From Gammaproteobacteria bacterium (GTDB taxonomy: Bacteria > Pseudomonadota > Gammaproteobacteria > SZUA-140), in NCBI GenBank assembly GCA_015491865.1, contig WFVD01000026.1:124001-188000 (forward strand): a DNA stretch of 64,000 nucleotides. Reading direction: 5' to 3'. Of the stretch, positions 22,940 through 40,489 are shown piece by piece (the first letter of the stretch is position 1; the number at the start of each line of letters is the position of its first letter). Below the pieces are notes generated by a model, which saw only the letters and a list, made by a program, of their open reading frames with translations, did no database searches and was not told the origin of the DNA. The position numbers and the translations under genes were made by a program.

Positions 22940-23674
22940 ATGCGTAGGTACTTAATATCGATGTCAGCTTTGGCGTTTGTTGCAGGCACGCTTGCACCAA
23001 CAGCGGCTATGGCATCCGCTCAGTACTCAAAAGGTGATGGAAACGTTAGTAATGGTAAAACCATATATGAACAGGGGAAGGGTGATGTCCCTGCCTGTAA
23101 TTCATGCCACGGTGTTGATGGCAACGGTGATGATAATATGGGGACACCGCGTCTAGCGGGACAGGGTTTTACTTTCCTGTTGAAACAACTGGAAGATTTT
23201 GCAACAGATAAGCGTATGGATGAAACGATGTTCGTGATGAATGCCAATGCAAAAGGCATGAGTCCACAGGATCGTCGTGATGTGGCTACTTATCTTGCGC
23301 AAAAGCAAGATGCTTTTGCTGGTTCAAACCTTAAAGAGCTAGCTGCTAATGGTGTCGTTACAGGTAAAACCAACTTCGGAAAATCACTTGTTGAAATTGG
23401 TAGCCCAGAGCTTTCTGCATGTAAGTCATGTCACGGTTATGCAGGTCGAGGTGCACCACCTATCTATCCTGTAATTCTGAATCAGCGTTATACCTATCTG
23501 GTCAGTCAGCTGAAGAAGTTCCGTGATGGAAGTCGTGCAAATGATCCAATGGGTCAGATGCGTGCAATTGCCAGGAAGATGTCTGATGATGACATCAACA
23601 ATGCTGCTGCATATCTGACTTCTGCCGAGAGAAGCACGCCAGGCAATCCACAGACTCCTTATACAATCCACTAA
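22940..23674 (+). CDS. Diheme cytochrome c4-like protein
   Basis: This is a 244-residue secreted protein with a signal peptide (cleavage near AMASAQ). Two class I cytochrome domains follow, each with a heme site: CNSCH at about 53-57 and CKSCH in the second half. Each half has the c4-like MSPQDRRDVATYLA / MSDDDINNAAAYLT helix. Cytochromes c4 are periplasmic electron carriers that can donate to cbb3 oxidases. GGAGGGG precedes ATG 22940. A strong terminator follows, so it ends its own transcript. Confidence 0.92.
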   Translation: MRRYLISMSALAFVAGTLAPTAAMASAQYSKGDGNVSNGKTIYEQGKGDVPACNSCHGVDGNGDDNMGTPRLAGQGFTFLLKQLEDFATDKRMDETMFVMNANAKGMSPQDRRDVATYLAQKQDAFAGSNLKELAANGVVTGKTNFGKSLVEIGSPELSACKSCHGYAGRGAPPIYPVILNQRYTYLVSQLKKFRDGSRANDPMGQMRAIARKMSDDDINNAAAYLTSAERSTPGNPQTPYTIH

Positions 23675-23775: not shown

Positions 23776-24435
23776 ATGGGGCTCACCAAACGAATTGGTA
23801 ATATTCCTGGTATGGCAAAAAAGCAACCCCTGAAGTCCGGTGAGAAGATATTGTTAGGTATATTCGGTGCCTTCTTCTGTCTCGCCGCGATTGGTTATGT
23901 CGTGCTGGAAAGTGTTCGCCTGACTTCTGAGAAGCCGATGTTTACTCAGACAACCTTTTTTAATTTTTCCGAAGAAGGGAAAATCGGTCATGGTTACTAC
24001 ATGAAGGCGAACTGTAATGCATGTCACCGTGCAGTACGGAGTGGTACCAGTATGGGGCTGTCATTAGATGGAATTGGCTCGAAAAGAAGTATTGACTGGT
24101 TGGAGCAGTTTTTATTAGAACCTGAGCGTGTTTACGAAGGGCCAACGATTGACCATGGCGTTGGGAAAGAGGCTGGTAACATTATTGCCAGGCTTTCTGA
24201 AGATAAGATTAGACCTATCGCTGTCTTTCTTTCTGAACTAAAAGCCGTGGCAGGCTCATCAGTCTCCAAAGTCCCGCCGCCGGAGCGTTCTGAATTTATC
24301 GATGGAATGGTTGGTTCATGGGCTCCAGAAGGGTGGAAAGAAAAATATGAAGATGTTCGCGATCGTATCAAGCGTGAAGAAGGAGAGGCGGCAGATCGTG
24401 ATGCTGCGGATGAAGAGGTGATCGATGCGCGCTAG
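23776..24435 (+). CDS. Membrane-anchored monoheme cytochrome c
   Basis: This 219-residue protein has one N-terminal membrane helix (about 25-47), then one heme site NCNACH and a C-terminal acidic tail. After the heme it carries SLDGIGSKRSIDWLEQFL, a motif shared with the cytochrome at 31252-31743, so the two are paralogues. It overlaps the short heme-copper-oxidase-like gene by 11 bases, which suggests that they work together in electron transfer. The axial methionine is not certain. Confidence 0.82.
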   Translation: MGLTKRIGNIPGMAKKQPLKSGEKILLGIFGAFFCLAAIGYVVLESVRLTSEKPMFTQTTFFNFSEEGKIGHGYYMKANCNACHRAVRSGTSMGLSLDGIGSKRSIDWLEQFLLEPERVYEGPTIDHGVGKEAGNIIARLSEDKIRPIAVFLSELKAVAGSSVSKVPPPERSEFIDGMVGSWAPEGWKEKYEDVRDRIKREEGEAADRDAADEEVIDAR

Positions 24436-24964
24436 ACCCTGGACGCATGAACAAGAGCAGGATTACCGTAAATATACCCTCTGGTTTATTTATGCCTGTG
24501 TGATTTACAGTATTATAGGTTTCTCATGGGGTGTGATTGTTGGTATGTTCCCTGATTTAAGGGAATTCATTAATCATCGCCCTCATGGTAACCTGATTAT
24601 GCTGGGCCATGGTCACCTTAATCTGCTTGGCTGGGTAGAGATGGCCATATTTGGCTCGATTTACTACATTATTCCTCGCCTGGTCAGGCGACCAATTTAT
24701 AGTTTTAAACTGGTGCGTATTCACTTTTGGATGCATAATTTTGGTTTGCTTGGAATGGTGGTGTCATTTGTTGCTGCTGGTGTGATGGGTGGCATGGCGA
24801 GTATGTCGATGTCTCCAGCTGAGACCAGTGAAATTGTCCGTCCCATAATGATTACTGTCGGTATGTTTGGTCTTCTTGTGCTGTCGGCGAATATTATTTG
24901 GGGCTTTAATATTTTCCGCACCTGCATGGGCTGGGAGAAAGATTATGTTCGAGATTGTAAATAA
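24425..24964 (+). CDS. Short heme-copper-oxidase subunit I-like protein (four helices)
   Basis: This 179-residue integral membrane protein has four helices. The second carries LGHGHLNLLGW and is followed by IPRLVRRPIYS and IHFW. That order resembles the CcoN segment with the H-x-H heme ligands (AHAHLALLG, then RRKLYS and FHYW, in the CcoN at 27169-28578). The protein covers only about one third of a normal subunit I and lacks CuB ligands, so it cannot be an oxidase by itself. It may bind heme as a redox or assembly subunit. A relative lies at 39962-40489. Confidence 0.7.
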   Translation: MRARPWTHEQEQDYRKYTLWFIYACVIYSIIGFSWGVIVGMFPDLREFINHRPHGNLIMLGHGHLNLLGWVEMAIFGSIYYIIPRLVRRPIYSFKLVRIHFWMHNFGLLGMVVSFVAAGVMGGMASMSMSPAETSEIVRPIMITVGMFGLLVLSANIIWGFNIFRTCMGWEKDYVRDCK

Positions 24965-25460
24965 GACAACCCGGCTGTTTGTCGTCGCTTTTGTGGTGGT
25001 CGGACTTAACGGTTGTTTTGAATTTGATGCCTCAACGCTGAAGATTGGCCAGCAAGCGCCTATTATGAAAACAAAGACACTTGCTGATGTTGACGGTGAT
25101 TTTAGCCGGATTACTAGTTATCGCTATCCAGATGAACGCATGTATCAGTATTCCCTTGATGATGCACTGGCACAGGGGAAGCCAGTCATTGTTGAGTTTG
25201 CAACGCCAGGGCACTGTACCGTCTGTGATAAGCAGCTTCAGGTTTTGAAGGGGATCTTAAACAAATATGAGTCTGAAATAATTATAGTACACATGGATCA
25301 ATACCAGAACCCAGAGGCTTTTATTGAGTATAAAGTCACGGGTGACCCGTGGACTTTTGTTATCGATAAGAACCAGAAAGTGGTCTTTAAGCGCCCCGGG
25401 CGCCTGCTTTACCAGGAAATCGATAAAGCACTGCAGCCACTATTAGCAGTCCAGAGTTAA
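24945..25460 (+). CDS. Thioredoxin-fold lipoprotein
   Basis: This 171-residue protein has a lipobox (VVGLNGC) after a short signal helix. The thioredoxin-like domain has the redox motif CTVC in FATPGHCTVCDKQL, and a later cis-proline region VTGDPWTFVID. TlpA/ResA-like proteins of this kind reduce apocytochrome cysteines or serve oxidase copper-site assembly. ATG at 24945 lies inside the end of the previous gene (20-base overlap). The longer open frame upstream is not used because the signal helix begins here. Confidence 0.8.
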   Translation: MFEIVNKTTRLFVVAFVVVGLNGCFEFDASTLKIGQQAPIMKTKTLADVDGDFSRITSYRYPDERMYQYSLDDALAQGKPVIVEFATPGHCTVCDKQLQVLKGILNKYESEIIIVHMDQYQNPEAFIEYKVTGDPWTFVIDKNQKVVFKRPGRLLYQEIDKALQPLLAVQS

Positions 25461-25478: not shown

Positions 25479-25937
25479 GTGGCTAAAAAGCAGTATCGTG
25501 TTGAGCTGGTTCAGGACAGGAAAGGGATGTACTGGGATCTGGCGCTCTATGTGCCGACAGTTATTTTCCTGGTCTCAATCGCATTAAAAATGTGGTATAC
25601 AGCTGATAAAAACTGGGCATACCTTTTGATGTTTATGGCATCATTCTTTCTATTGGCAGGCGCTAATCGAATACTGAAATCGCGAATGATGTTAACCGGC
25701 TCATCGCCAATAAGTATCGATGTTGATAAGCAGCGAATAGCCTTTGGTCTGCGAAATGGTGAGAAGGTTGAGCTTGTTAAAGGGGCTCGATTTTTTCCTG
25801 ATTTCGCCGGAAAGAGCTTTGCGATTACCGGGATCGATCTTAATGGTAAGAAGTGTCAGTACGTATTTCATCGTGGGCAATTTGCGGATGAAAGCGAATA
25901 CAAAGAGCTGCGAGAGTTTCTGCGTATTTACGGTTAG
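25479..25937 (+). CDS. Membrane protein of unknown function
   Basis: I do not recognise this 152-residue protein. Two adjacent membrane helices (about 22-40 and 47-65) are followed by a soluble domain with alternating strands (GSSPISIDVDKQRIAFGLR; FAITGIDLNGKKCQYVF). This resembles the two-helix plus PH-like layout of some inner-membrane proteins. GTG at 25479 is the only reasonable start. It closes the cytochrome, short oxidase-like and thioredoxin-like gene run. Confidence 0.6.
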   Translation: MAKKQYRVELVQDRKGMYWDLALYVPTVIFLVSIALKMWYTADKNWAYLLMFMASFFLLAGANRILKSRMMLTGSSPISIDVDKQRIAFGLRNGEKVELVKGARFFPDFAGKSFAITGIDLNGKKCQYVFHRGQFADESEYKELREFLRIYG

Positions 25938-26173: not shown

Positions 26174-26663
26174 GCTCTTTATCCCGCTTTTTTGATGTGT
26201 TCTAGTACAAAGATGGAGTTCTAAGTTAGATCATATATGAATTAAGCGCTGCGATCACTACCCTTCGCTGTGCATTAATCCAGGCGCTTTCTGTTGCAAA
26301 AAATAGAGCACTTACAGTATGTTATGAGGATGGTTTTTGGGCCAGATTGGAGTTGTTAATAAAACCACTTTATCCCTTAACTGTAGTGCCGGAAGCACTT
26401 GAATATTTGTTATAAAGACCTTGACGATATTAACTGACATGTGTCAGTATCTTCGACCAAGTTCCCTGTCTCCTTGGTGCAGTAATCTGGCCGCGGGGCA
26501 GAAGTGTAATAGCCTGCTGGACGGAGTAAGAATGGCAGGAAAACACTCTTAGCTTAGGGTAATTGAAGAGTAAACGCATTTTAGAGGGGAAGGTGGTGCG
26601 TACGCAGAATCGATATCAATCAATTATGTGTACGATAATAAAGATCGACATGGGAGGGTGGAG
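26174..26663. other. Gene-free regulatory gap before the ccoN transcript
   Basis: No convincing gene in this 490-bp stretch. It contains a TTGACG box at 26421-26426 and a perfect short dyad at 26433-26448 (listed separately). An ORF entering from 26628 is only an extension of the next gene. Confidence 0.5.
26433..26448. promoter_or_regulatory. CRP/FNR-superfamily-type dyad TGAC-N4-GTCA
   Basis: ACTGACA-TG-TGTCAGT is a perfect inverted repeat. Its core TGAC-N4-GTCA has the half-site spacing of FNR (TTGAT-N4-ATCAA) and of NnrR/DNR-type NO regulators (TTGAC-N4-GTCAA), differing from the latter only at the outer base. It lies just after a TTGACG hexamer (26421-26426) and upstream of the small membrane genes and ccoN. 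Confidence 0.45.
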
Positions 26664-26957
26664 ATGAAAAATAAACTGTCACTAGGTAATACCTTTTGGG
26701 TGCTACTGATTGCGGGATTTACGACAGGCATGGGTAACGGTAGTGTATTTGGCGCTGCTGTGATGTGTGCAGTTGGTCGTGGACCTTACGAAAACTGGGG
26801 TGGTTGGGGGATGGATGCACTTAATCCAAGCACATTTTCAGGGTTCATTGATTGTGTAATGCTGGTTTTTGGTCTGGCCTTTGCAATTATCACAGGTCTC
26901 GCGATGGCTAAGCATGGGGCTTTAGAGGCGCGTGGGCAGTCTACCGGAACCTGGTAG
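26664..26957 (+). CDS. Two-helix membrane protein upstream of ccoN
   Basis: This 97-residue protein has two hydrophobic helices (about 9-33 and 60-80) joined by a Gly/Trp-rich loop (GRGPYENWGGWGMD). The frame is open from 26628, but ATG 26664 has GGGAGG six bases upstream and gives a conventional start. It is the first gene of the probable ccoN transcript. No family recognised; it may be an accessory subunit of the oxidase. Confidence 0.6.
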   Translation: MKNKLSLGNTFWVLLIAGFTTGMGNGSVFGAAVMCAVGRGPYENWGGWGMDALNPSTFSGFIDCVMLVFGLAFAIITGLAMAKHGALEARGQSTGTW

Positions 26958-27168: not shown

Positions 27169-28578
27169 ATGCTAATTAAATATCTATTTGCGAAAAACGA
27201 AGATATACCGGCAGGTTCGTCGTCGGTATTCTTTGGTTTTTCAGCAATTTTTTGGTTTGTAATAGGGACTGGGCTAGGTTCCTTTAATGCCGCCAAGCTG
27301 GCATTTCCGGACTGGGTTACTGGTACGGAAATGTTTGCTTTTGGTCACATGCGCCAGGTGCATGTACTAGCTGTCATTCTTGGCTGGATTTCAATGGCGT
27401 TCGCAATGACCATGATGTACATGACTCCAGCGCTGGGTAACACCAAGCTGTGGTCTGAAAAACTGGGTCTCTGGAATGCGTTCCTATGGAATGTTGGCCT
27501 GAGTCTTGGTCTTTTTCTATTGTGGATGGGGATTACATCTGGTCGTGAATATTCAGATCTGATCTGGCCGATCGATATTGTGGTCTTCCTTGGTGTACTG
27601 CTTCCGCTGGGTATTAACGTCTGGATGACCATTGCACATCGTAGAACCCAGGGTATCTATATTACCAACTGGTTCTTCGGTGCTTGTATCTTTATGGTAA
27701 TGGTTGTATTCGCGGTAGGTCAGTCTCCAGAGCTATTCAACTTGACTGGCTTAACAGAAGCGTACATGACTTTCTGGTTTGCCCATAACGTACTTGGTCT
27801 ATGGATTACGCCAGTTGCAGCAGCGATTGCTTATTACACCATTCCAAAGTTGACCGGTAACCCACTCTATTCACATAGAATTGGTCATCTGCATTTCTGG
27901 TCAATCATCGCGTTCTACTCAACACCAGCGTCGCATCACCTGATGTCTGCCCCACTGCCTGAATGGTTGAAGTCATTCGCATCTGTAGAAGGTGTTTTGA
28001 TTCTGATCCCGGCAGTAGCATTCGTAGCTAACATCTTGCTGACAATGAAAGGCAAATGGAGCATGTTTGTTGAGAATGTTGAGACCAAGTTCTCTATTAC
28101 TGGTGTTCTGCTTGCTATTCCTTTGAATATGCAGGGTGGTTTCCAGCAGACTCGTGCGATCAACTGGTACGTCCATGGTACTGGCTGGATTGTGGCTCAC
28201 GCTCATCTGGCACTGCTTGGTATGTCTACATTCCTGGAAATCGCGGCTGTATACTTCGGTCTTCAGCAGATCCTGAGAAGAAAACTTTACTCTCTGGCGC
28301 TTGCTAATTTCCATTACTGGTTCGTTCTGATCGGCTTTTGTATCTACTGGATCTCAATGACTATTGCTGGTCTGATTCAGGGCGCAGGGAAGATCTACGA
28401 AGTACCATACATTGACGTGGTGGTTGCAGAACATCCATACATGATCGCTCGTTGGGTTGGCGGTACAATGGTATTTACCGGTAACCTGGTATGGCTCTAC
28501 AACATGTACATGACCGCTCGCGAAGGAACCGTAGTTCCAGCTGGTCGTTATGCCCACGAGATGGCTTACGAACGCTAG
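27169..28578 (+). CDS. ccoN: Divergent C-family heme-copper oxidase subunit I (CcoN-like)
   Basis: This 469-residue protein with about 12 helices is the catalytic subunit. H65 (MRQVHVLAVILGW) and H346 would ligate low-spin heme b, H344 the high-spin heme, and H206 (FAHN), H256 and H257 (SHHL) the CuB site. Y250 stands six residues before H256, where C-family oxidases have their His-linked tyrosine. Positions match Pseudomonas stutzeri CcoN almost without gaps, yet Q322 replaces its conserved Glu. Family placement is firm. O2 reduction is favoured by the tyrosine, but an NO-reducing branch of the family is not excluded. GGAGGAGAGGG precedes the ATG. Confidence 0.88.
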   Translation: MLIKYLFAKNEDIPAGSSSVFFGFSAIFWFVIGTGLGSFNAAKLAFPDWVTGTEMFAFGHMRQVHVLAVILGWISMAFAMTMMYMTPALGNTKLWSEKLGLWNAFLWNVGLSLGLFLLWMGITSGREYSDLIWPIDIVVFLGVLLPLGINVWMTIAHRRTQGIYITNWFFGACIFMVMVVFAVGQSPELFNLTGLTEAYMTFWFAHNVLGLWITPVAAAIAYYTIPKLTGNPLYSHRIGHLHFWSIIAFYSTPASHHLMSAPLPEWLKSFASVEGVLILIPAVAFVANILLTMKGKWSMFVENVETKFSITGVLLAIPLNMQGGFQQTRAINWYVHGTGWIVAHAHLALLGMSTFLEIAAVYFGLQQILRRKLYSLALANFHYWFVLIGFCIYWISMTIAGLIQGAGKIYEVPYIDVVVAEHPYMIARWVGGTMVFTGNLVWLYNMYMTAREGTVVPAGRYAHEMAYER

Positions 28579-28671
28579 AAGCTAGCTTTAGTAAATCGTC
28601 GTACATATCCCCTTCTCTCAGTGAGGGTCGAGAGAAGGGGGATAAAAAAGATAAATGGGAGGGTTTTAAAC

Positions 28672-29628
28672 GTGGCATTTCAACAACATAAATTAGGGGC
28701 AGCGGCTATCGGGGGGATGTTAGGTCTCTCGATGTGTATTACGCTAATGTTTCCAAGTTTTGACTTTCGTTCAGCGGAGTCAACTTGGGTTGGTCTGGAT
28801 AAGTCATTATCTAATGGCCGTGTAATTGGCTTTAGTTACGAAGATCCACTTGTGACCGGTGCGGGTAAGCCTATCACAGTGATTTTGGACAAAGATCCAA
28901 AAACTGGAGAGAAAATTGATCCGCCAATGCGTGCTTATGTCTATGAGCCGGGTGTGCCATTCGCACCAGCTGTCCGTCATCCAGCTAATACTGGGCCAAC
29001 GGTGAGCCAGTTGAGTTTGAATCTTGGAAAAATGGGTGAGGCAAGTGAAGCTCAGGGCGCTGTTTTCGGTATTAATCGCGGTGAAGTTAATGGCAAAGAC
29101 TGGGATTACATTGAAAATCTAACAGCACTCAAAGGCTGGACACCAGCTGATACTCTGCGTGCTGCATCAGATGAAAATACCCGCTACGTCGGTAAAGGCA
29201 AGACGGTCTACATCACTGAGGGTTGCTGGTGGTGTCATACACTACTACCTGAGCAGACACAAGACTGGCAGATCTTTGGTGCTCCACCAATGCTAGGCGA
29301 TTTCAACGGTGAAATGCCAACAGCTTTTGGTTCTGACCGCAAGGCTCCTGATATCCTTCATGTAGCTTCACGTAACTCATCAAGAGAATGGATGGATATG
29401 CATTTCTTCAATCCACGTCTTGTTCAGCCAAACTCAATCATGCCGCGTTTTGATTACCTTTGGGGTGAGACAGATGCACATGGCAACAAGATTGATTTTG
29501 ACAAGTGGCGTGCAGAGTATAAGGAATACCGAGCTGGAACTAGGATCTATCCACCTGAAATTCCAGAATATGCAGGTAATTCTGAAGCACGTGCGCTCGT
29601 TGACTGGATCCTGACGAGTCTCAAGTAA
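28672..29628 (+). CDS. ccoO: CcoO-like monoheme cytochrome c subunit
   Basis: This 318-residue protein has one N-terminal membrane anchor (about 8-28) and one heme site CWWCH (185-189), then the CcoO-type order GSDRKAPDILHVASRN and FNPRLVQPNSIMP, where M257 is the likely axial ligand. It is the membrane cytochrome partner of CcoN. The start is GTG 28672 with GGGAGGG upstream; ATG 28621 is less likely because it has no ribosome site. It is longer than usual between anchor and heme. No ccoP gene follows. Confidence 0.87.
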   Translation: MAFQQHKLGAAAIGGMLGLSMCITLMFPSFDFRSAESTWVGLDKSLSNGRVIGFSYEDPLVTGAGKPITVILDKDPKTGEKIDPPMRAYVYEPGVPFAPAVRHPANTGPTVSQLSLNLGKMGEASEAQGAVFGINRGEVNGKDWDYIENLTALKGWTPADTLRAASDENTRYVGKGKTVYITEGCWWCHTLLPEQTQDWQIFGAPPMLGDFNGEMPTAFGSDRKAPDILHVASRNSSREWMDMHFFNPRLVQPNSIMPRFDYLWGETDAHGNKIDFDKWRAEYKEYRAGTRIYPPEIPEYAGNSEARALVDWILTSLK

Positions 29629-29647: not shown

Positions 29648-30283
29648 ATGGCTATTAAATTTGACCAACCGTTCTACTCTCTCTCTGATGAGGCTGAGCA
29701 GAACAGAATAATTGAACTTTGGGAGGCCGAGAAACATGGTGGGCTTTGGGAGGGTAATAATCGCTTACCATTTCCATTAACGTTTCTTATGGGCCTGATC
29801 ATTTTGACTGCGTTCATGATCACAATGCCAATTTGGGGGCAACGTCCGACTGCACATGACTTTGTTGAGCATGTGGCTCTGATGGATTCCCCTGAAATCC
29901 AGGCGATTGAAGATCCTGCCGCCAAAATGGCTAAAATCGATGAGATCGCCTATCAACGTGCAGATTCTCGTGTGAAGGCATCATTGGAACGTCACCCTAT
30001 TTCGTGGGATGATCTTCTCAATATTGCACCTCACATCAAAGAAGCACAGGCATCCGGTAAATACCCACTAGATTACTACTCAGTACTAGGTGACAAAATT
30101 GTACTGGCTAACTTTGAAGGCAATCCAACAGCTGATGGTTCTCCAGAAAGAAAGCAACCCTGGTGGGATACTGGTTACACTATTGATGTTTTTTATGTGA
30201 CTTACTTTATTCTTTTTGCATTCTTTGTCACTAAGCGCCTGCCGCACTTCAGCCGCAAGCCTGATATGTCAAATGCCAAGTAA
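29648..30283 (+). CDS. Two-helix membrane protein of the ccoNO operon
   Basis: This 211-residue protein has a helix at about 43-63 ending in MPIWGQRP, a hydrophilic domain of about 100 residues, then PWWDTGYTIDVFYVTYF with a second helix. It occupies the place where ccoQ/ccoP are normally found but has no heme motif. The PxWGxRP ending of helix 1 recurs in the protein at 38532-38969 beside ccoG. GGGGAG precedes the ATG. Probably a structural subunit; no family recognised. Confidence 0.6.
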   Translation: MAIKFDQPFYSLSDEAEQNRIIELWEAEKHGGLWEGNNRLPFPLTFLMGLIILTAFMITMPIWGQRPTAHDFVEHVALMDSPEIQAIEDPAAKMAKIDEIAYQRADSRVKASLERHPISWDDLLNIAPHIKEAQASGKYPLDYYSVLGDKIVLANFEGNPTADGSPERKQPWWDTGYTIDVFYVTYFILFAFFVTKRLPHFSRKPDMSNAK

Positions 30284-30617: not shown

Positions 30618-30965
30618 ATGATGGTTTTAGACTTTATAAGTGGTAGCCCCTTTTTGATGAAACTATGGGTCTATGTTAGTGGGCTGCAGTTGGCAGTTGA
30701 AGAGGTAGTTGATAATCGCGTATTAGGCATTGATATGAGTATCGAAGGCCTACGCTCTCAGACATTTAGTGTCGGTATCTTTATATTTTTAGTAATTTCG
30801 CTAATATTCTTCTCAATTATCATCTATTTTTATTTGCCCAGGGGGAAAAATAATAAAAACAAGTTAAAGAGGGGCGAAAAGGTGATGTTTGGAGCGATAA
30901 TAGCAGGCATATTTATTGCCATCGGAATGGGCTGGTTACAGCTAATTGAAGGTTTCTTACTGTAG
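30618..30965 (+). CDS. Two-helix membrane protein, unknown
   Basis: This 115-residue protein has hydrophobic helices at about 50-72 and 88-110 separated by a basic loop (GKNNKNKLKRGEK). It opens the second respiratory transcript, 10 bp before the ccoS-like gene. The start ATG pair at 30618/30621 has no strong ribosome site. No family recognised. Confidence 0.5.
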   Translation: MMVLDFISGSPFLMKLWVYVSGLQLAVEEVVDNRVLGIDMSIEGLRSQTFSVGIFIFLVISLIFFSIIIYFYLPRGKNNKNKLKRGEKVMFGAIIAGIFIAIGMGWLQLIEGFLL

Positions 30966-30974
30966 GGGTCAAAA

Positions 30975-31265
30975 GTGAAAGAATATATACAATCATTACC
31001 TGATGGGTGGACGATATATTTATGGATGGTAGCTGCGGCAGGCATACTGATTGGCGCTGCTTTCCTATTACGCTGGGGTTTTAAAAACAACCAGTTTGAC
31101 GAAGACATTAAGTATGTCGTATTTGATGATGACGATGTTGATAAAATGAGTGATGAAGATTTTAAGAAGAGCAAGGAAGTACAGCAGAAGCAGGAAAATC
31201 TGCGTGAAGAAGTGTTAAGGAAGCGCGCAGAGCAGAAGCAAGCAAAAAATAATGAAAAAAGGTGA
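30975..31265 (+). CDS. CcoS-like cbb3 assembly protein with extended tail
   Basis: In this 96-residue protein one helix (about 14-33) is followed by RWGFKNNQFDEDIKYVVFDD. This matches the CcoS pattern of helix, then W-x-x-K/R-x-x-QFDD and an acidic DDD end. CcoS helps insert cofactors into cbb3 oxidases. After it comes an unusual charged coiled tail (SKEVQQKQENLREEVLRK) absent from ordinary CcoS. GTG at 30975. It overlaps the next cytochrome gene by 14 bases. Confidence 0.65.
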   Translation: MKEYIQSLPDGWTIYLWMVAAAGILIGAAFLLRWGFKNNQFDEDIKYVVFDDDDVDKMSDEDFKKSKEVQQKQENLREEVLRKRAEQKQAKNNEKR

Positions 31266-31743
31266 GAAGTTAATCTTTGCTCTTATTGGGCTAATCGCAG
31301 TTGTATCGGTTGTTTATCAGGGGTGGCAGGTTGCAAATGTCACAGAAGAAGATCCTGGAATTCCTTATTATTCGACTGCCTCAAATGAGCTTAGTGATAA
31401 AGCAGGAAAACTTATAAGAAAGCACTCGTGTAGAGAGTGCCATAAGATTTTCTTTTTAAATGATCTGACACAAAATGTCCCCTCGCCTTCATTGGATGGG
31501 ATTGGCTCTTTACGAACTGAGGAGTGGTTGTATAACTATTTCTCGGCTGAGAATCCTCAGGAAATAGTTCCAAGTCGATTGAAGCAGCGTTTTCAGATGC
31601 CTTCACTTGCTCATCTACCAGAAGAAGATCGTCGGGTATTAGCTGCATACATGGCTAGCCTGAAGGTCGAAGACTGGTACCTGGAAGAGACACGCAAGGC
31701 TGCATATGAAAAACGTACAGGTAAAGAGTATCAACCAGAGTAG
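31252..31743 (+). CDS. Membrane-anchored monoheme cytochrome c (paralogue)
   Basis: This 163-residue protein has an N-terminal anchor (MKKGEKLIFALIGLIAVVSV), one heme site CRECH, then SLDGIGSLRTEEWLYNYF and FQMPSLAHLPEEDRRVLAAY, where the Met is the probable axial ligand. The GIGS-x-R-x-x-x-WL motif and the KxGEK start are shared with the cytochrome at 23776-24435. It is a likely electron donor or subunit for the CcoN-like enzyme, replacing CcoP. Confidence 0.82.
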   Translation: MKKGEKLIFALIGLIAVVSVVYQGWQVANVTEEDPGIPYYSTASNELSDKAGKLIRKHSCRECHKIFFLNDLTQNVPSPSLDGIGSLRTEEWLYNYFSAENPQEIVPSRLKQRFQMPSLAHLPEEDRRVLAAYMASLKVEDWYLEETRKAAYEKRTGKEYQPE

Positions 31744-31752
31744 GTAGAGGCT

Positions 31753-32241
31753 ATGTCGTTTACATCTGTATTTAGAGTGACACCCAGAGATGTGGCATGG
31801 GGGTTTTTTGCTGTACTGGTTGGTGCTGGTGTCAATATGGCTGGTGACAGGCTAATGGGTGTTAGTTTGGAGCTGTTTTACGGTGTGCAAACGTTTAATC
31901 CTATGTGGATCGTAACGCTCTTCTTCGTCCCCTTTATTGCGGGAATTGTGGTCTCGCTGATTTTTGGCCTCGGTGGTAAGATTCTGGCATATTTCTCTCC
32001 CATTATTGTTAGAGTTTACGAGTACAATGCGCTCTACGACCATCGATTAGATCTACCAGATGGAGTAACACTACTCCCGGTGGGTTACTGGATCCTGGTA
32101 GTGATCATTGCCGTAGAGGCAGCCGCTATTGGTGGGGTGATCGGTGAAATTGTGAATAAGAAAGTTTATGGTCGTTCAGCCAAATCTAAATTCCATAAAC
32201 GACATCAAAAAAAGCAGGACGAACCAACAGAAAAAGTGTAA
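31753..32241 (+). CDS. Three-helix membrane protein, unknown
   Basis: This 162-residue protein has hydrophobic segments at about 13-30, 48-75 and 105-130. A conserved-looking loop YEYNALYDHRLDLPDG and a Lys/His-rich tail (HKRHQKKQDEP) follow. It lies in the second respiratory transcript between the cytochrome and the SUMF1-fold gene. No family recognised. Confidence 0.5.
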   Translation: MSFTSVFRVTPRDVAWGFFAVLVGAGVNMAGDRLMGVSLELFYGVQTFNPMWIVTLFFVPFIAGIVVSLIFGLGGKILAYFSPIIVRVYEYNALYDHRLDLPDGVTLLPVGYWILVVIIAVEAAAIGGVIGEIVNKKVYGRSAKSKFHKRHQKKQDEPTEKV

Positions 32242-32281: not shown

Positions 32282-33337
32282 ATGAATAGATTTAAACACC
32301 AGGCTCCGCTGACAAAAGAACAGCGACTGATACGTAAACGTTATATAGGTGCAACTTTTGTTACCTGTATTGTCTTATCGCTAGTGGGTGGCACAATTCA
32401 TGTGCTTGAGCTAGGGTCGAACCGCATGCACGACATGCGAGATAAGGCGGGAATTGACCTTGCGCTTGAGCATGACCATATTCGAGCAGCGGGTGAAGAG
32501 TTGTTTGTTCAGGTTGATTTCGAATTTGGAGACATACAACAGGCGAGTTATACGGTCGAAGAGGCTGCGGCGCTGTTAACACCGGAGCAATGGGCCGAAT
32601 TAGAGACGATGATTGATATTCCGGCAGGCGAATTTCTGATGGGGACGAATCGAAAACAATCCAATGTATATAACCGGCCGCAAAATGTTGTTAAAACAGA
32701 TGCCTATCGGATTGATAAATACCCGGTTACAAATGCGCAGTATGCCCGTTTTGTTGCGGCAACAAATCATCGACCTCCGTTACACTGGAAGGATGGCAAG
32801 ATTGCCGAGGGGCTGGAGCTTCACCCCGTTACGATGGTCTCCTGGAAAAATGCATCCGATTATGCAGCCTGGGCAGGAAAGCGACTGCCAACAGAAGCTG
32901 AATGGGAAAAGGCTGCTCGCGGTACAGAAGGCTACCGATGGCCGTGGGGAAACCACATGGATGCCGAGCGACTGAATACTTACTATAGTGTCGGCAGCAC
33001 CACGCCATATAACGCCTACCCAAATGGAGCAAGCCCATATGGTGTGATGGATATGGCCGGTAATGTTAGTGAGTGGACGGCTGATGACTTTACCGCTTAC
33101 ATGGGAAGTGCTGCGCCTAGCAGTATTTTTAAAGTAAGAAAAGCCAAAGAGCCCAGGCAGGGGCCAGCCAAAGCGATGAAGATGGCTGAGTTCGAAGAGA
33201 CAGATGAGCGTTATAAAGTACTACGCGGTGGTTCGTGGAAGAGCGATCCTTTCTCAACTGCGACATACCACCGCAACTATGCATGGCCTAATTTCGCATC
33301 TGATTTCTTTGGATTTCGTTGCGCCCAGACACCGTAA
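32282..33337 (+). CDS. Membrane-anchored SUMF1/FGE-fold protein
   Basis: This 351-residue protein has one helix at about 21-42, a short linker, then a formylglycine-generating-enzyme-type domain (about 110-351). Family marks are IPAGEFLMGTN, YPVTNAQYARFV, RLPTEAEWEKAARG, MDMAGNVSEW, YKVLRGGSW and FFGFRCA. The paired catalytic cysteines of true FGE are absent: YHRNY stands where CYRYRC is found in the human enzyme. Sulfatase activation is therefore unlikely. SUMF1-fold proteins such as NirV occur in denitrification clusters, and the role here may be maturation or a structural subunit. Confidence 0.8.
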   Translation: MNRFKHQAPLTKEQRLIRKRYIGATFVTCIVLSLVGGTIHVLELGSNRMHDMRDKAGIDLALEHDHIRAAGEELFVQVDFEFGDIQQASYTVEEAAALLTPEQWAELETMIDIPAGEFLMGTNRKQSNVYNRPQNVVKTDAYRIDKYPVTNAQYARFVAATNHRPPLHWKDGKIAEGLELHPVTMVSWKNASDYAAWAGKRLPTEAEWEKAARGTEGYRWPWGNHMDAERLNTYYSVGSTTPYNAYPNGASPYGVMDMAGNVSEWTADDFTAYMGSAAPSSIFKVRKAKEPRQGPAKAMKMAEFEETDERYKVLRGGSWKSDPFSTATYHRNYAWPNFASDFFGFRCAQTP

Positions 33338-33346
33338 ACCATAGGT

Positions 33347-33625
33347 TTGAAAATGAAACGCCTGATCACATCATTGTTATTTACGGGATTGGCTGTTTTG
33401 CCGATTACCAGTTTTGCAGCCGATAGCTACCGCTGGCTTCATGTCACAATCGACACGCCATGGATGATCTTTCTTTTTTTACTACCGATGGTGCTGATCC
33501 CCGCCATATTGATGGCAATCCTTTACTGGAAGTTTGCAGGCCGTACCCCGGAGACAGAGAAGAAAGAGAAGCCGGCTAAATCGACTGCTGAGGTTGTACC
33601 GGGTCAAAATGAGACGATAGATTAA
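33347..33625 (+). CDS. Secreted/anchored one-helix protein, unknown
   Basis: This 92-residue protein has a signal peptide (cleavage near SFAAD), a short periplasmic strip (SYRWLHVTIDTPW), a membrane helix (about 42-64), then a Lys/Glu-rich tail. It abuts the next gene (stop/start overlap by one base). No family recognised; it looks like an accessory subunit. Confidence 0.5.
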   Translation: MKMKRLITSLLFTGLAVLPITSFAADSYRWLHVTIDTPWMIFLFLLPMVLIPAILMAILYWKFAGRTPETEKKEKPAKSTAEVVPGQNETID

Positions 33626-33993
33626 TGAGATCAATTTCACGCATTTCAACGCTGTTTTTCGTATTGATGTCGCTACTGCTAACGAGTCTTAATGCGACTG
33701 CGACTGATGATACGCAGAGTGAAAACAACGCGCATGCTGTGCTGGCACCTTTTATTGATAAGGAAGAGGTGCTGGGTGAGGCGGTTGCCATTGATGACGA
33801 GCAGAAGCATCTGATACTGTTTTATATGGGCGTTGTGTTACTGTTCCTGATCCTCGCTACCGCCATCATCGGCCTGCAAATGGCACTGTTTGGTAAGCAG
33901 TTATTTGTTCAGCATATGATTAGTGCCGGCTTTACTGTGTTCCTCTCACTGGCGCACGCCGTTACCGCGATAGTCTGGTTCTTCCCCTTTTAG
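33625..33993 (+). CDS. Signal-peptide plus two-helix membrane protein, unknown
   Basis: This 122-residue protein has a signal-like N-terminus (cleavage near NATATD), an acidic stretch (APFIDKEEVLGEAVAIDDEQ) and two helices (about 65-85 and 96-118). It ends the respiratory transcript and is coupled to the previous gene by a one-base overlap. No family recognised. Confidence 0.5.
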   Translation: MRSISRISTLFFVLMSLLLTSLNATATDDTQSENNAHAVLAPFIDKEEVLGEAVAIDDEQKHLILFYMGVVLLFLILATAIIGLQMALFGKQLFVQHMISAGFTVFLSLAHAVTAIVWFFPF

Positions 33994-34149
33994 TGAGCTT
34001 CTTTGTGCAGTCGCCGTAGTTGTGTCACCCTGGACTCGCTGCTACGCTAATCCGTTTGCACTAGCGCCCACGTTCAGCATTTAGTGGCGCTGGCTGACCA
34101 GGGGATAGGCGGGTTAAGTTTGTTATATTCATTTCAAAAAAGAAGTGCA

Positions 34150-36747
34150 ATGTGGGCGTGGAGCCTTGCAATTGTCTATGCCCTCTCTGGCATGGCCGCG
34201 CTCTCCTATGAAGTGCTGTGGGCGCGCATGCTGTCACTTCAGTTTGGGGTCAGTATCTTCGGTATTGTGGTCACTGTTTCAGCCTTTATGGCGGGACTCG
34301 GTAGCGGCAGCCTAGTGGGCGCGCGTCTGGTGCAGTTCCTGCGTAACCCACTTTTAATCCTGGTGCTACTGGAAGTAGCCGTTGCAATGTTTGCATGGTT
34401 CACACCACAGCTTTTTCAGGCACTTGATCTATGGCTGGGGATTGGTGTCGCAGGAGGCGGTCTGTCTCAGTGGTATGCGTTGCAAGGGGTGGTTGTTTTT
34501 GTAGTGCTGTTTATCCCCGCCTTTGCACTGGGGCTTGGCTTTCCGCTTGTGCTCTCAATGATCACTGGCAGTGCTGTCTCCCTGAGTAAAATTTATGCGT
34601 TGAACACACTGGGCGGCGCATTCGGCGCACTGTTGCCACTTGGATTGTTACCACTGTTTGGCTGGACGGTATCGATTCGCCTGGTTGCTATTCTGGGGCT
34701 CGTTGTTGCAGTGATGCTCTTTCTGCTATCACGAGCGGTAAAGGCGGAGCCTTGCGACCATGCCGGCGCGGGCTCCCGTACAGAGTGGCTTGCTATTCGC
34801 TACCTGTTGGCGTATGCAGGCATCGGCGCCGCAGCGTTGATGCTGCAGGTGGCGTGGACACGCCTGTTCGGCATGATACTACTGCGTACAGAATATGTGA
34901 TGGCGGTGATGCTCGCAATCTTCTTGATGGGGATTGCACTGGGTAGTGCGCTGGTGAGGCAGCGCGCTTCCCAGCGATGGCTGTCGTTGCTGCCGATGAT
35001 CGCCGCATCGTTTACGATGCTGAGTCTGTGGGGGTTGCCATTACTTGCGCAGTGGGCTGAGCATACAGAGTATGAGTCGCTGTTTGATGCGCTCTGGTGG
35101 CAGTCGATCGCATTGGTACTGTTAACCTTACCGGTAACACTCGCACTGGGTGCCTGGTTACCATTACTGGCTGCACATCATCAGGTGGAGGATGCGGCAC
35201 AAAGCCGCTCGATCGGTGCGCAGTTATACGGTGCCAATTCTGTTGGTGCTGCGCTGGGTGCCATTGTGACCGGGTTTCTGCTCCTGCCGCTACTAGGCGC
35301 GCCGGGGACGATAGTGTTTGCTGGCTTGGCGCTGTTTCTCTGTGGCATGATCTGGGTGAAATCCCCGCGGCTCTGGTTAGCGGTTCTGCTGGTGATTGCG
35401 CTGGCACTCCCGGTGGTGCAACTACCGGCGGTAAATGTGTTGCTACCGCGCACCCAGGCTGACACTAAAGACCTTTTTCGGTACGAAGATGCCGTCTCAA
35501 TCACGCATGTGATCGAACGAGAGGATGGTCAGCGGCTACTGCTGGGGGATCTGCAGCGGATGGATGCCTCATCTGACCCAGCAGCCGTAGTGGCGCAGAT
35601 GAATCAGGCCCGTCTGCCGCTGTTGCTCCACCCCGCCCCCGAGTCGGTGCTGTTTCTTGGGATCGGCACCGCCATCTCTGCTGCCGGCTCGCTCCCCTAT
35701 CCAGCCCTGGCTCGCACAGGGGTAGAGTTGTCGCAGGGGGCGATTGATGCCGCGGCCCAGTTTTTTCAGCCAGTGAATGGCAGGGTGATGGAGCAGATGC
35801 GCATTATCCGTGATGATGCGCGCCGTTTTCTACGCGCCGACAATGAACACTACGATGTCATTATTGGTGACCTCTTTCATCCGGATCTCGTTGGGCGTAG
35901 TGCACTGCTCTCCGTACAGCAGTTTGAGCGAGCGAAAGAGCGCCTGAATGAAGGTGGCCTGTTTGTCCAGTGGCTGGCCTTGAATCAGTTCGATGTCCGT
36001 TCGATGAGCATTGTGCTGCGCAGTTTTGAGCAGGTTTTCCCTCAGGCAGTACTCTTTCTGGATGGCTTCAGGGTGGGGTTGGTCGGCCCACGAGATCAAT
36101 TTGGTGGCGCGCCCGCAGTGTTGGCAAATCTGCAACGCCTCAGTGCTAAACAGCAAGCGGCAGTAACGGGCGACGAAGGCAGCTGGAGCTGGCTGGGGCG
36201 TTTCTGGGGTAAAATCAACGAGGGAGAGGGGGTGGTGCAGGATGAGTGGGCACCACAGCTCGAATACGCCCTCCCCAGGCTGCGTTTTAGTGGTGGTGAT
36301 GCATTACCGCAGCTACTGGTATCGCTGCTGGATGAGCGCCCCTCGCTATCTGAAGCGATGGTACTGCTGCAGGTGGCTGAAGGAGAGCGAGCCGCGTTTG
36401 AGCGTAGCTACGTCGCGACGGGGCTGGCGGTGCAGAGCTGGCTGGCCTCGCTTCAGGGGGATAGCCGTGAGGCGCAGCGGTTGATGCGATTTGCCTATGA
36501 GGCGAATCCTGAAGATCGCTGGATCGGTTTTGACCTTGCCGACGCGATGTGGGTGACAGTTTCCAATAGGGTGGCGCAGGGAGGTGATGAGCGTCACTCT
36601 CTACAGGCGATTTTACAGGTGCGCCCTGACCATGAACAGGCGCTGAAAGCGATGTGGCAGCTGGAGCTGCGCGAGGGCAACCTGGCGCAGGCGGAGGCTT
36701 ATCGAGCGAAGCTGAAGGCGATCAGTCCGCTGGGGAGAGGCGCCTGA
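34150..36747 (+). CDS. Polytopic membrane protein with spermidine-synthase-like domain
   Basis: This protein of about 865 residues has twelve-plus helices in the N-terminal half, with LSYEVLWARMLSLQFG and ALNTLGGAFGALL. A soluble SpeE-like domain follows, with SAM-fold motifs VLFLGIGTAIS, GVELSQGAIDAA and YDVIIGDLFHPD. The C-terminal region looks TPR-like. This is the fused transporter/spermidine-synthase-like family whose substrate is generally unknown. ATG 34150 is chosen over a GTG at 34084 because the helix begins there. It is GC-richer than the preceding cluster. Confidence 0.8.
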   Translation: MWAWSLAIVYALSGMAALSYEVLWARMLSLQFGVSIFGIVVTVSAFMAGLGSGSLVGARLVQFLRNPLLILVLLEVAVAMFAWFTPQLFQALDLWLGIGVAGGGLSQWYALQGVVVFVVLFIPAFALGLGFPLVLSMITGSAVSLSKIYALNTLGGAFGALLPLGLLPLFGWTVSIRLVAILGLVVAVMLFLLSRAVKAEPCDHAGAGSRTEWLAIRYLLAYAGIGAAALMLQVAWTRLFGMILLRTEYVMAVMLAIFLMGIALGSALVRQRASQRWLSLLPMIAASFTMLSLWGLPLLAQWAEHTEYESLFDALWWQSIALVLLTLPVTLALGAWLPLLAAHHQVEDAAQSRSIGAQLYGANSVGAALGAIVTGFLLLPLLGAPGTIVFAGLALFLCGMIWVKSPRLWLAVLLVIALALPVVQLPAVNVLLPRTQADTKDLFRYEDAVSITHVIEREDGQRLLLGDLQRMDASSDPAAVVAQMNQARLPLLLHPAPESVLFLGIGTAISAAGSLPYPALARTGVELSQGAIDAAAQFFQPVNGRVMEQMRIIRDDARRFLRADNEHYDVIIGDLFHPDLVGRSALLSVQQFERAKERLNEGGLFVQWLALNQFDVRSMSIVLRSFEQVFPQAVLFLDGFRVGLVGPRDQFGGAPAVLANLQRLSAKQQAAVTGDEGSWSWLGRFWGKINEGEGVVQDEWAPQLEYALPRLRFSGGDALPQLLVSLLDERPSLSEAMVLLQVAEGERAAFERSYVATGLAVQSWLASLQGDSREAQRLMRFAYEANPEDRWIGFDLADAMWVTVSNRVAQGGDERHSLQAILQVRPDHEQALKAMWQLELREGNLAQAEAYRAKLKAISPLGRGA

Positions 36748-37215: not shown

Positions 37216-38529
37216 ATGCGTGCCAACGAAGTTTTGAGTAAAATTCAGGTGGTCTCAACCGGGCCAAAATCGGCATCCCCACAACAAGGGTTACATTGGA
37301 AGAATCGCCTGGTTCGATTTGGCTTTATCGCGATATTGATTTTAACGCCGGTACTGGGGATCTTCCGTATCGATGTCTCCTCCGGTTTTGTCATCCTTGG
37401 GCGGCAGGTCTGGTTTGCTGACTTTTTTCTGGTCTTCGGTTTCTGGTTAACGGCCGCTTGCCTGCTTGTCATTATGTATTCGATGCTGGGGACAGTCTTT
37501 TGTGGCTGGGCCTGCCCACAGAACACATTCTCGACCTGGGCGAATAGTGTGACCGAAAAGCATCTGGGCAAGCGAGCGGTGATCGACTGGAATAATGAGA
37601 TGTCAGCACGCATCGCTAACGCCAAAAATAGATGGGGCAACTGGGCGTTACTGAGCATCAAAATGTTGCTGGTTTCGATGTTGCTGGCGCTGATTCCGAT
37701 GCTCTATTTTAATTCGCCAGGCGCAATCTGGTCGTTCATTACGTTCCAGGAGGATGAGCGGCTGGCCGGTTCACTGTACTGGATCTACACCGTATTTGTC
37801 TTTATCGCCCTGGTTAATCTCGCCGTGATTCGTCACTTCATGTGCCGCTATATGTGCATCTATCGCATGTGGCAATACCTGTTTAAAACGCGCGACACCC
37901 TCCATGTGGAATATGACGAGTCGCGCTCAAGTGAATGTGACAAGTGTAATTACTGTGTCACCTCATGTATGGTAAACATCGACCCGCGCCAAACCAGGAC
38001 CTATGATAGCTGTACTAATTGTGGTGAGTGCATCACCGCCTGTAATAAGCTACACGAGAAAAAAGAGACAGAGGGGTTGTTGAGGTTGAAGTTTGGTCAG
38101 CGTAAAAACCTGACCGCAGCCGATGCAGAAAAATTGACTAGTGGTAAACAGCGCGCACTGCTGATTACTCCCATCTTCCTGCTGGGGCTAGGGCTTTTCC
38201 TCTGGGGGTTGTGGTCCTATCAACCCTACCAGTTAACGGTCTACCGTGCTGAGATTATGCATGGCCAGCAGGTCTCAGATTATCGAGTGAATATTGCCAA
38301 CAAGCGCTATGACCCCGCGTCGCTAAAGATTGAGGTTGAAGGGCTGGATAAAGCACTCTATTCGTTGGATACAAGTCAGCTGGTGTTTGATACCGCTGGC
38401 CGTAAAGATGTTAATTTGAGGATTAAAGGTGGCCTGCCAGAGGGGTTGACAACATTTATTGTACGGGTGACGGCGGACGATGGTTGGACCGCGCATTACC
38501 GGATACAGCATTTAGTAGATCGGGGGTAG
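37216..38529 (+). CDS. ccoG: Cbb3 oxidase accessory protein CcoG (4Fe-4S)
   Basis: This 437-residue membrane ferredoxin has CGWACPQ, five or six helices, and two CxxCxxCxxxC clusters: CDKCNYCVTSC and CTNCGECITAC, each closed by a proline-type loop. A C-terminal immunoglobulin-like domain follows. CcoG (RdxA/FixG) reduces copper for cbb3 assembly. It begins a transcript with a two-helix protein and a lipoprotein, and supports the view that the CcoN-like enzyme nearby uses cbb3-type maturation. ccoI is not in the window. Confidence 0.93.
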   Translation: MRANEVLSKIQVVSTGPKSASPQQGLHWKNRLVRFGFIAILILTPVLGIFRIDVSSGFVILGRQVWFADFFLVFGFWLTAACLLVIMYSMLGTVFCGWACPQNTFSTWANSVTEKHLGKRAVIDWNNEMSARIANAKNRWGNWALLSIKMLLVSMLLALIPMLYFNSPGAIWSFITFQEDERLAGSLYWIYTVFVFIALVNLAVIRHFMCRYMCIYRMWQYLFKTRDTLHVEYDESRSSECDKCNYCVTSCMVNIDPRQTRTYDSCTNCGECITACNKLHEKKETEGLLRLKFGQRKNLTAADAEKLTSGKQRALLITPIFLLGLGLFLWGLWSYQPYQLTVYRAEIMHGQQVSDYRVNIANKRYDPASLKIEVEGLDKALYSLDTSQLVFDTAGRKDVNLRIKGGLPEGLTTFIVRVTADDGWTAHYRIQHLVDRG

Positions 38530-39464: not shown

Positions 39465-39965
39465 TTATTTGCGTTTCAATCCAGGGGCATCCAGCCAGCG
39501 GCGCATTAGCATGATGCGGTCATTGCCTTCTGTTTTCTGGCAGCGCGGGCAGTTGAGGTGAACAAGGTAGAGCTCTTTGGGACGCTTGCCTGACTCGATC
39601 AGGCCGATCGACATCTCGCGCACCGGCACCTGCAGGGTACCCACATTGCCCTTGTGAATCTGAACCCGCAGATTGAATGGTGCCGGCAGGTAGCTAATGC
39701 GACGTGATGCCGAGCGGCTATGTTTTAACAGGCGAATCCGTTTGCCGCGAAACATGCCGGTACGGTTGAGCGCCAGCCCTGGCCACTCCTCTTCCAGTTC
39801 CAGGTTCTCAATCTCTGTCTGCTGGCGTTTGGCATAGAGCTCACTGGCGATCGGCATGTGCAAAAAACATGAGGTTGGCATGGTGTGAATGCACTGTCCA
39901 GCCAGGTCAACATCCTGATTGTGCCACTCAGGGTAGTCGTCGGGGCAGCCGCATTCACGGATCAT
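39465..39965 (-). CDS. Cys/His-rich protein coupled to a short oxidase-like gene
   Basis: This 166-residue soluble protein has a metal-site-like N-terminus (C5, C7, H15, C25, H27, C33, H36), a middle rich in Arg/Lys, and a CPRC pair with HLNCPRCQK near the end. No family recognised. Its start overlaps the stop of the short heme-copper-oxidase-like gene by 4 bases, so the two are made together. It may bind a metal or heme; this is inference. Confidence 0.5.
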   Translation of the reverse strand: MIRECGCPDDYPEWHNQDVDLAGQCIHTMPTSCFLHMPIASELYAKRQQTEIENLELEEEWPGLALNRTGMFRGKRIRLLKHSRSASRRISYLPAPFNLRVQIHKGNVGTLQVPVREMSIGLIESGKRPKELYLVHLNCPRCQKTEGNDRIMLMRRWLDAPGLKRK

Positions 39966-40489
39966 GGCTTTTTATAGACCTGTTTAACGGTGGCGAAAAC
40001 GTTAAAAAAGAAGACCCAGAAACCGACTCCCATTACAGTCGAAACAGTGGCGATGATCGGCTTGTAGATCTGATGCATCGCATCCATCCCCTCCAGGTCA
40101 CCGGCTAGCAGTAGATTTCCTTCCAGTGTGCCGAAGGTCATCAGGGTGCTGTAAAAACCGATCAGGCCGAGCGCAGTCCACCAGAAGGTGTGGAACACCA
40201 GGCGGCGCGACCATAACGCTACGCCAGAAATTTTCGGTAGCATATAGTAGGTGGCAGCCATGCAGAGGATCACCACGCCACCAATCACATTCATATGGGC
40301 ATGTGCTAGCGGGTCGATCATATGCCCCGGCCCGCCGTACGGGCTGCCGATGGAGTCGAGCCATGCGCGTACGGGTGGCTGAATCTGCCACACGCCATGC
40401 ACGGTACCCACCATAAAACAGAAGGTGGAAAAGAAGAGGAACTTGATGAGATCGCGATCTTCCGGATGTGAAACTTGCTGTGTAGTCAT
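39962..40489 (-). CDS. Short heme-copper-oxidase subunit I-like protein (second copy)
   Basis: This 175-residue protein has four helices. Helix 2 carries PLAHAHMNVIGGV and helix 3 starts VFHTFWW, in the same order as the short protein at 24425-24964 (LGHGHLNLLGW, IHFW). As with that protein, the H-x-H motif resembles the CcoN heme-ligand helix but CuB ligands are missing. It faces the ccoG run across the Cys-rich gene. Probably a heme-binding membrane subunit. Confidence 0.7.
   Translation of the reverse strand: MTTQQVSHPEDRDLIKFLFFSTFCFMVGTVHGVWQIQPPVRAWLDSIGSPYGGPGHMIDPLAHAHMNVIGGVVILCMAATYYMLPKISGVALWSRRLVFHTFWWTALGLIGFYSTLMTFGTLEGNLLLAGDLEGMDAMHQIYKPIIATVSTVMGVGFWVFFFNVFATVKQVYKKP

Follow-up and report, generated by a model that had tools for sequence, protein, structure and literature searches.

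The closest described relatives of the enzyme considered here are the cbb3-type (C-family) heme-copper oxidases. In canonical cbb3, a conserved glutamate, given without a residue number in the available part of the source, is hydrogen-bonded to the heme b3 histidine and sets the heme potential; the low potential of heme b3 is put down to this Glu-His bond (PMC8398457). A different form has been noticed in iron oxidizers. According to extracts of three papers, the term 'distal' cbb3 of Ducluzeau et al. 2008 is used for Gallionellaceae, Zetaproteobacteria and Sideroxydans lithotrophicus ES-1, and one of the two cbb3 forms in iron oxidizers is this 'distal' one, which has different subunits (PMC8788666, PMC10734462, PMC7029218). 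The distal form is highly expressed in S. lithotrophicus, where it is up on thiosulfate while the proximal form is up on Fe(II)-citrate (extracts of PMC8788666), so that a simple link of distal cbb3 to iron is disfavoured. Extracts of other papers report a cbb3 cluster in Ferrovum with extra cytochromes and without subunit III (PMC4725956), an oxidase called simply cbb3 in Nitrotoga (PMC6050957) and a 'complex IV-2', possibly the present cluster, among the most expressed genes of Ca. Tenderia (PMC5371394).

We analyzed a CcoN-like gene at 27169-28578 (+) of a gammaproteobacterial window (the whole stretch of DNA under analysis, 64,000 nucleotides). Its product has glutamine, Q322, in place of the conserved glutamate. 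We think it quite likely that this product is the catalytic subunit of a cbb3-like O2 reductase of the C family, of the Gln type named 'distal cbb3' in work on iron oxidizers, in which the Gln tunes heme b3, and that the enzyme is not an NO reductase.

The CcoN-like subunit and its gene cluster

The 469-aa open reading frame is clean and starts with ATG, just 5' of which lies a Shine-Dalgarno-like GGAGGAGAGGG. A phmmer search against the PDB returned Pseudomonas stutzeri CcoN1 (3mk7_A) as the closest relative, and in this alignment Q322 (codon CAG) lies over E323 with no local gap. The spacing from this residue to the proximal His is 22 in both proteins. Against the ccoN equivalog model the product scores 224 bits, under the cut-off of 583. 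The six His ligands (H65, H206, H256, H257, H344 and H346) and Y250, the active-site Tyr on the helix of the CuB His pair, which is aligned with Y251 of 3mk7, are present in all 119 unique rows of the clade of close relatives; they are common to ordinary CcoNs of the same class as well. The sequence-only reading, made before any database search, had already set Q322 against E323 and had matched the six His and the Tyr to P. stutzeri CcoN, and the printed alignment bears out both assignments. Its statement that the match is without gaps holds near the ligands, several short gaps being present elsewhere. The full alignment places no alternative Glu at the site, and the ungapped neighborhood rules out a misalignment that might hide one.

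The genes of the cluster are listed below in window coordinates, together with the gene for a second single-repeat protein on the opposite strand. Locus counts refer to the best 80 of 188 named loci and, within these, to loci with enough flank.

22940..23674, + strand, diheme cytochrome c, 244 aa, putatively Cyc1-like; two Cytochrom_C stretches; 55/65 loci
23776..24435, + strand, membrane-anchored monoheme cytochrome c, 219 aa; one TM, one CXXCH; 61/67 loci
24425..24964, + strand, 4-TM stand-alone relative of one subunit I repeat, 179 aa, HxH at 62/64; PF00115, 64.7 bits (cut-off 34.8); 70/70 loci
24867..25460, + strand, thioredoxin-like protein, start codon uncertain; PF13098, PF00578 and PF00085 over cut-off; 59/71 loci
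25479..25937, + strand, two-TM protein, 152 aa; 59/72 loci
26628..26957, + strand, membrane protein upstream of ccoN, 109 aa; no Pfam match; 78/78 loci
27169..28578, + strand, CcoN-like catalytic subunit with Q322 (codon 28132-28134); PF00115, 247 bits; 3mk7_A, E=4.6e-60
28621..29628, + strand, CcoO-like monoheme c subunit, 335 aa, one TM, one CXXCH at 202; FixO PF02433, 58 bits (cut-off 29.6); 80/80 loci
29648..30283, + strand, membrane protein with no family assigned, 211 aa; no Pfam match; 76/76 loci
30618..30965, + strand, small membrane protein, 115 aa; no Pfam match; 71/72 loci
30975..31265, + strand, FixS/CcoS-like protein, 96 aa; FixS E=0.005, below cut-off; 72/72 loci
31252..31743, + strand, membrane-anchored monoheme cytochrome c, 163 aa; PF00034, 27.5 bits (cut-off 21.3); 72/72 loci
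31753..32241, + strand, membrane protein with no family assigned, 162 aa; no Pfam match; 68/70 loci
32282..33337, + strand, FGE-sulfatase (SUMF1-like) domain protein; PF03781, 189 bits; 69/69 loci
33347..33625, + strand, small membrane protein, 92 aa; no Pfam match; 65/66 loci
33625..33993, + strand, membrane protein, 122 aa; no Pfam match; 63/63 loci
34084..36747, + strand, membrane protein with a spermidine-synthase-like domain, 887 aa; PF01564, 34.5 bits (cut-off 22.9); 62/62 loci
37216..38529, + strand, CcoG/FixG-like ferredoxin-type membrane protein; Fer4_5 and Fer4_18 over cut-off, FixG_C weak; 45/58 loci
39962..40489, - strand, second 4-TM stand-alone relative of one subunit I repeat, 175 aa; PF00115, 33.6 bits (cut-off 34.8); matches all three CcoN thirds

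The search for a canonical CcoP in the cluster gave nothing over the cut-off of 180 bits, the best score (36.5 bits) belonging to the diheme protein at 22940. The anchored monoheme cytochromes are candidates for the point of electron entry. The same gene order extends to a contig of a sister-class family (L220), on which 19 of the 23 tested proteins were matched; the diheme cytochrome was not seen there, but the contig starts only about 1 kb before. The FGE-sulfatase protein and the 887-aa protein are constant members of the oxidase cluster, with roles that are unexplained.

The enzyme thus shares with canonical cbb3 (P. stutzeri CcoN, 3mk7/5djq) the fold family, the six His, the Tyr and a CcoO-type subunit. 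It differs in that the clade is about 30% identical to the canonical protein, has Gln and many fixed changes, scores below the ccoN equivalog level and comes without a CcoP over the cut-off.

Distribution and history of Gln and Glu at column 322

Residues at column 322 were counted in a pooled set of 213 rows (171 unique), from which duplicates and short hits had been left out; the minimum length was 380 aa in the first round, which took 211 hits to 156 rows, and 300 aa later. Gln is present in 17/17 aligned rows of related loci, the window's own included, and in all 119 unique clade members, the single intermediate relative (L114, 59% identity) and 7/7 rows of a deep group. The remaining 40 C-family rows are a sample, many listed canonical hits never having entered the count; 38 of them have Glu and two (L192 and L198) have Gln. 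In this way 10 divergent C-family proteins outside the clade also carry Gln. The column holds Trp in 2/2 NorB rows and Gly in two other heme-copper oxidases. Since Gln is fixed in 119/119 unique clade members, Q322 is not a lone mutation, and a sequencing error is ruled out likewise; judged from the aligned sequences, Gln is a fixed signature of the whole clade and no defect.

Among kin genomes, 28 of 39 gave a match, and this type of enzyme is present at 17 loci (L004-L020, the own genome included), either at 80-100% identity or as pieces. In a scan of named-species genomes, 188 loci encode a relative. The best 80 of these 188 are 79-98% identical and come mostly from Gammaproteobacteria MAGs, with the addition of Gallionella, Sideroxydans, Nitrosomonadales and seven Candidatus Nitrotoga records. 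Wider searches revealed relatives at about 75% identity in a sister-class family (f132), which probably belongs to the Zetaproteobacteria. The enzyme is thus of an uncommon type, met with in uncultured kin of bacteria that oxidize iron and nitrite. A relative of the CcoN-like protein was absent from the viral contigs searched. The clade resembles 'distal' cbb3 in its organisms, in its non-canonical subunit composition and in that some genomes hold two forms of cbb3. We therefore consider it probably the same enzyme, a match made by organism and gene content and not by sequence.

The deep Gln group is found at 31-34% identity in Cupriavidus metallidurans CH34, Paraburkholderia aromaticivorans, Azoarcus KH32C, Indioceanicola, Paracoccus versutus and others. 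Like the clade, it has Gln at this column together with the Tyr and the complete ligand set, and its members are cbb3-type subunits I encoded on replicons. It differs by its low identity (about 31-34%), by forming a separate branch with 100/100 support and by having other neighbors where these are annotated. One member, L115 1180-2850 (+), and its kin L193-L197 have an extra N-terminal TM stretch that, by eye, looks like a CcoS/FixS-like fusion.

Phylogenetic analysis with column 322 omitted placed all the Glu rows on one branch (100/100 support), and the E/Q change needs a single step over 47 rows. In trees rooted by NorB or by other heme-copper oxidase outgroups, the root falls on the Gln side. 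Constraining the Gln rows to one clade was not rejected (p-AU 0.289; 43 rows, for which the program flags long branches). Both rooted trees thus favor an ancestral Gln and a derived Glu, yet the same test and the long branches leave this order without significance. The sequence-only reading had spoken of the loss of an acid and had proposed a phylogeny. In the tree Glu forms one branch, and either direction of change is allowed. Because the root lies on the Gln side and a single Gln clade is not rejected, the loss of a conserved Glu is unproven; as far as these sequences go, canonical cbb3 may equally well have gained it. The word 'loss' also fits poorly with Gln being fixed in the clade and present in other divergent C-family groups while Glu is confined to one well-supported branch.

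The canonical branch includes a CcoN-like protein, L125 1396-3015 (+), that keeps the Glu and has Ala for the Tyr and Gln for one CuB His. From these residues it is likely not an O2 reductase.

Within the sampled C-family sequences, the residue at column 322 followed the deep division of 'cbb3' into two kinds and may serve as a one-residue marker. Annotation lumps both kinds together when 'high-affinity' respiration is predicted in iron and nitrite oxidizers. A partial literature search by term found no mention of Gln at this site or of a one-third subunit I, and in the covered portion of the 'distal' cbb3 papers the Gln and the 4-TM proteins are likewise unmentioned. The enzyme type has already been noticed in iron oxidizers; what we did not find mentioned in this portion is the division into Gln and Glu types and the presence of single-repeat companions.

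Substrate of the enzyme and role of the glutamine

The genome is 99.99% complete and encodes one full-length PF00115 protein, which is its sole full-length heme-copper oxidase. A search for cytochrome bd gave no match in this genome and was positive in 10 of 14 control genomes; NirS and NirK were not matched in it either. The corresponding search for AOX is uninformative, as the control genomes also lacked a match. In the family (20 genomes), the enzyme is present whole or split in 16/20; another full-length heme-copper oxidase occurs in 2/20, and none in 4/20 (74-94% complete).

The full ligand set, the Tyr, the adjacent CcoO-like subunit, the conserved cluster, which includes several c-type cytochromes and assembly genes of the CcoG and FixS kinds, and the position of sole full-length oxidase argue for an O2 reductase. 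The sequence-only reading had reached O2 reduction from the Tyr, a view that the ligands, the lack of a second full-length oxidase and the lack of a bd match strengthen; the genome context, too, suggests that the clade enzyme reduces O2. Electrons from periplasmic c-type cytochromes would be taken up by the anchored monoheme cytochromes and the CcoO-like subunit and handed on via heme b to the heme b3/CuB site, where they would reduce O2, with some proton pumping. Close homologues with Gln might have turned out to be ordinary oxidases already characterized. For this type the literature, in the part covered, offers expression data and no purified enzyme, and to our knowledge no enzyme of this clade has been purified.

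As to the residue itself, the Glu bonded to the heme b3 His is presumably E323 of P. stutzeri and E383 of Rhodobacter sphaeroides, an identity that the 22-residue spacing to the proximal His fits. In R. sphaeroides the E383Q exchange was reportedly made by Rauhamaki et al. 2009, with changes in the heme b3 spectrum and EPR. The Gln of the clade would then stand in for the canonical Glu beside the proximal His of heme b3. As a neutral hydrogen-bond partner it would confer less imidazolate character on the His, and the heme b3 potential would lie above that of canonical cbb3; such a raised potential would suit chains with high-potential donors. Seen in this way, the Gln probably adjusts heme b3 from its proximal side, rather than marking a lost proton donor. 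The sequence-only reading had assigned the position to proton delivery or catalysis, while the corresponding canonical Glu is described, in the available part of the source, as bonding the heme b3 His and setting its potential (PMC8398457). A structure prediction around Q322, which that reading had suggested, was run and gave a mean pLDDT of 61.0 and values of 32-44 near the site, so its geometry was not used. The poor quality of the model is due to the shallow usable alignment (79-98% identity). Against the redox step stand this model, too poor at the site, and the identity of E323, which is a presumed one. Nature has here fixed a laboratory-type E-to-Q exchange across a large clade, a ready-made test of how the proximal Glu affects the redox potential, the affinity for O2 and the reactivity with NO.

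The Gln is one of many columns at which the clade differs, in a fixed manner, from canonical cbb3, and for this reason the effect of the single residue is not separable by sequence. At columns 239-240 (window 27883-27888), 53/53 clade rows have Gly239 and a fixed H240, while canonical rows have Ser and Val/Ile; we take the canonical Ser to have a proton role in the K-pathway. H236, too, is present in 53/53 clade rows and replaced by Tyr in canonical ones. Two acids, E274 (27988-27990, predicted TM8) and E357 (28237-28239, predicted TM10), are found in 53/53 clade rows and are absent from Glu-type rows. E274 lies one helix turn ahead of the column of a NorB active-site Glu.

Because of the Gly239/His240 change and the clade-specific Glu274 and Glu357, we keep a proton-transfer role as a rival to redox tuning. 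According to it, acid 322 and Ser239 were given up and H236, H240, E274 and E357 are used instead, with a different proton uptake or pumping stoichiometry. The strict fixation of all these residues in the clade, at columns where canonical rows carry Ser, Val/Ile, Tyr or a residue that is not acidic, is consistent with such re-routing. However, the intermediate relative L114 has Gln without E274, the deep group has Gln and Ser239 without any of the four residues, and the proton role of Ser239 is a presumed one. Since Gln also occurs in rows without the clade-specific groups, the two are not tied to each other, and we regard re-routing as unlikely. The simpler idea that the acid just moved to E274 or E357 is not supported by the same rows, since Gln322 occurs without E274 in L114 and without either acid in the deep group.

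Compared with proximal tuning, an essentially neutral exchange, with one and the same hydrogen bond made by Gln or by Glu and a division that reflects history only, appears improbable. It draws on the fact that Gln can form the hydrogen bond and that the tree has a single E/Q change. Nevertheless, there are no back-exchanges among 129 unique Gln rows or 38 Glu rows, which argues for constraint on both sides.

The remaining alternative concerns the substrate. The protein shares with cNOR (NorB) the superfamily and the His ligands; it differs in having the Tyr (Ser in 2/2 NorB rows at the Y250 column), in lacking the two active-site Glu of NorB and in having Gln where NorB has Trp. The NorB residues, which we take to be Glu 211 and 280 of P. 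aeruginosa, correspond here to the non-acidic G210, four residues past the TM6 His, and I278 (Glu in 2/2 NorB rows). A cbb3-derived NO reductase that mainly converts NO to N2O is very improbable: the low-confidence CcoN model matches cNOR and cbb3 alike (Z 24.3 and 24.1, values that do not separate them) and ordinary cbb3 or C-family enzymes show some NO reduction as a side activity (extracts of PMC8780969), but the Tyr is kept in 119/119 unique rows, the NorB Glu and the NorB Trp are absent, and a genome without a match to bd, NirS or NirK has this protein as its sole full-length heme-copper oxidase, all of which favors an O2 reductase. The NO-reducing role that the sequence-only reading had left open is thus disfavored by the residues at the site; by analogy with those enzymes, NO reduction may be a side activity of the clade.

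Stand-alone relatives of one subunit I repeat

Subunit I of heme-copper oxidases consists of three pseudo-symmetric repeats. The products of 24425-24964 (179 aa) and 39962-40489 (175 aa) are COX1-family membrane proteins of about one third the size of CcoN. Profiles of the two families match all three CcoN thirds, TM1-4, TM5-8 and TM9-12, with E-values of 8e-6, 6e-8 and 3e-19 for the first and 2e-7, 7e-9 and 2e-20 for the second; joined and compared with a wider CcoN profile they gave 1e-11, 1e-10 and 8e-27 for the same thirds. The controls, namely the families of 31753, 25479 and 29648 and reversed profiles, produced no match (highest probability 6.4%). In the PDB, the 4-TM profile was aligned with P. 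stutzeri CcoN at 12-107, 208-246 and 331-461, the first two being weak when taken alone, and its best stretch was the first third of NorB (4xyd 3-151).

The AlphaFold2 model of the 24425-24964 protein (pLDDT 93.9) has four long helices. A fold search with this model returned solved cbb3 chains at the top (TMq 0.76-0.79, rmsd 1.7-2.4), several of the alignments being on TM9-12. Conserved residues of the first family are H62, H64, N66, E72, H100 and H104, of which H62 and H64 are aligned with the CcoN heme ligands H344 and H346. The 4-TM proteins therefore share with subunit I the profile and fold match to its repeats and an HxH on the heme ligands. They differ in standing alone and in having four helices instead of twelve and no CuB His pair; the 179-aa protein accordingly falls outside the definition of a twelve-TM subunit with a complete binuclear site. 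Each may be either a TM9-12 fragment or the remnant of an ancestor with a single repeat, judging by these sequence matches. As CcoN TM9-12 itself matches TM1-4 (1.9e-9) and TM5-8 (2e-8), the two origins are not separable. A plasmid search with the first protein gave zero records covering 80% of it, and annotated rows among the matches listed were all ccoN; a phage search with the second gave none.

These relatives bear on the origin of the three-repeat subunit I. A doubtful but far-reaching reading would combine them with the Gln/Glu split. The C-family would be divided at the residue that polarizes the proximal His, the Gln type being a high-potential enzyme for Fe(II)- and nitrite-fed chains. 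The form in iron oxidizers would work with single-repeat units that bind heme through HxH, which would serve as additional heme-b subunits or form homotrimers mimicking a whole subunit I, and these units would be the surviving form of the one-repeat ancestor whose triplication gave all heme-copper oxidases.

A compact relative of the cluster is present at L221 (G053 contig 157), where a cytochrome c, a 4-TM single-repeat protein, a CcoN-like protein (59%) and a CcoO-like protein (173 aa) are encoded together.
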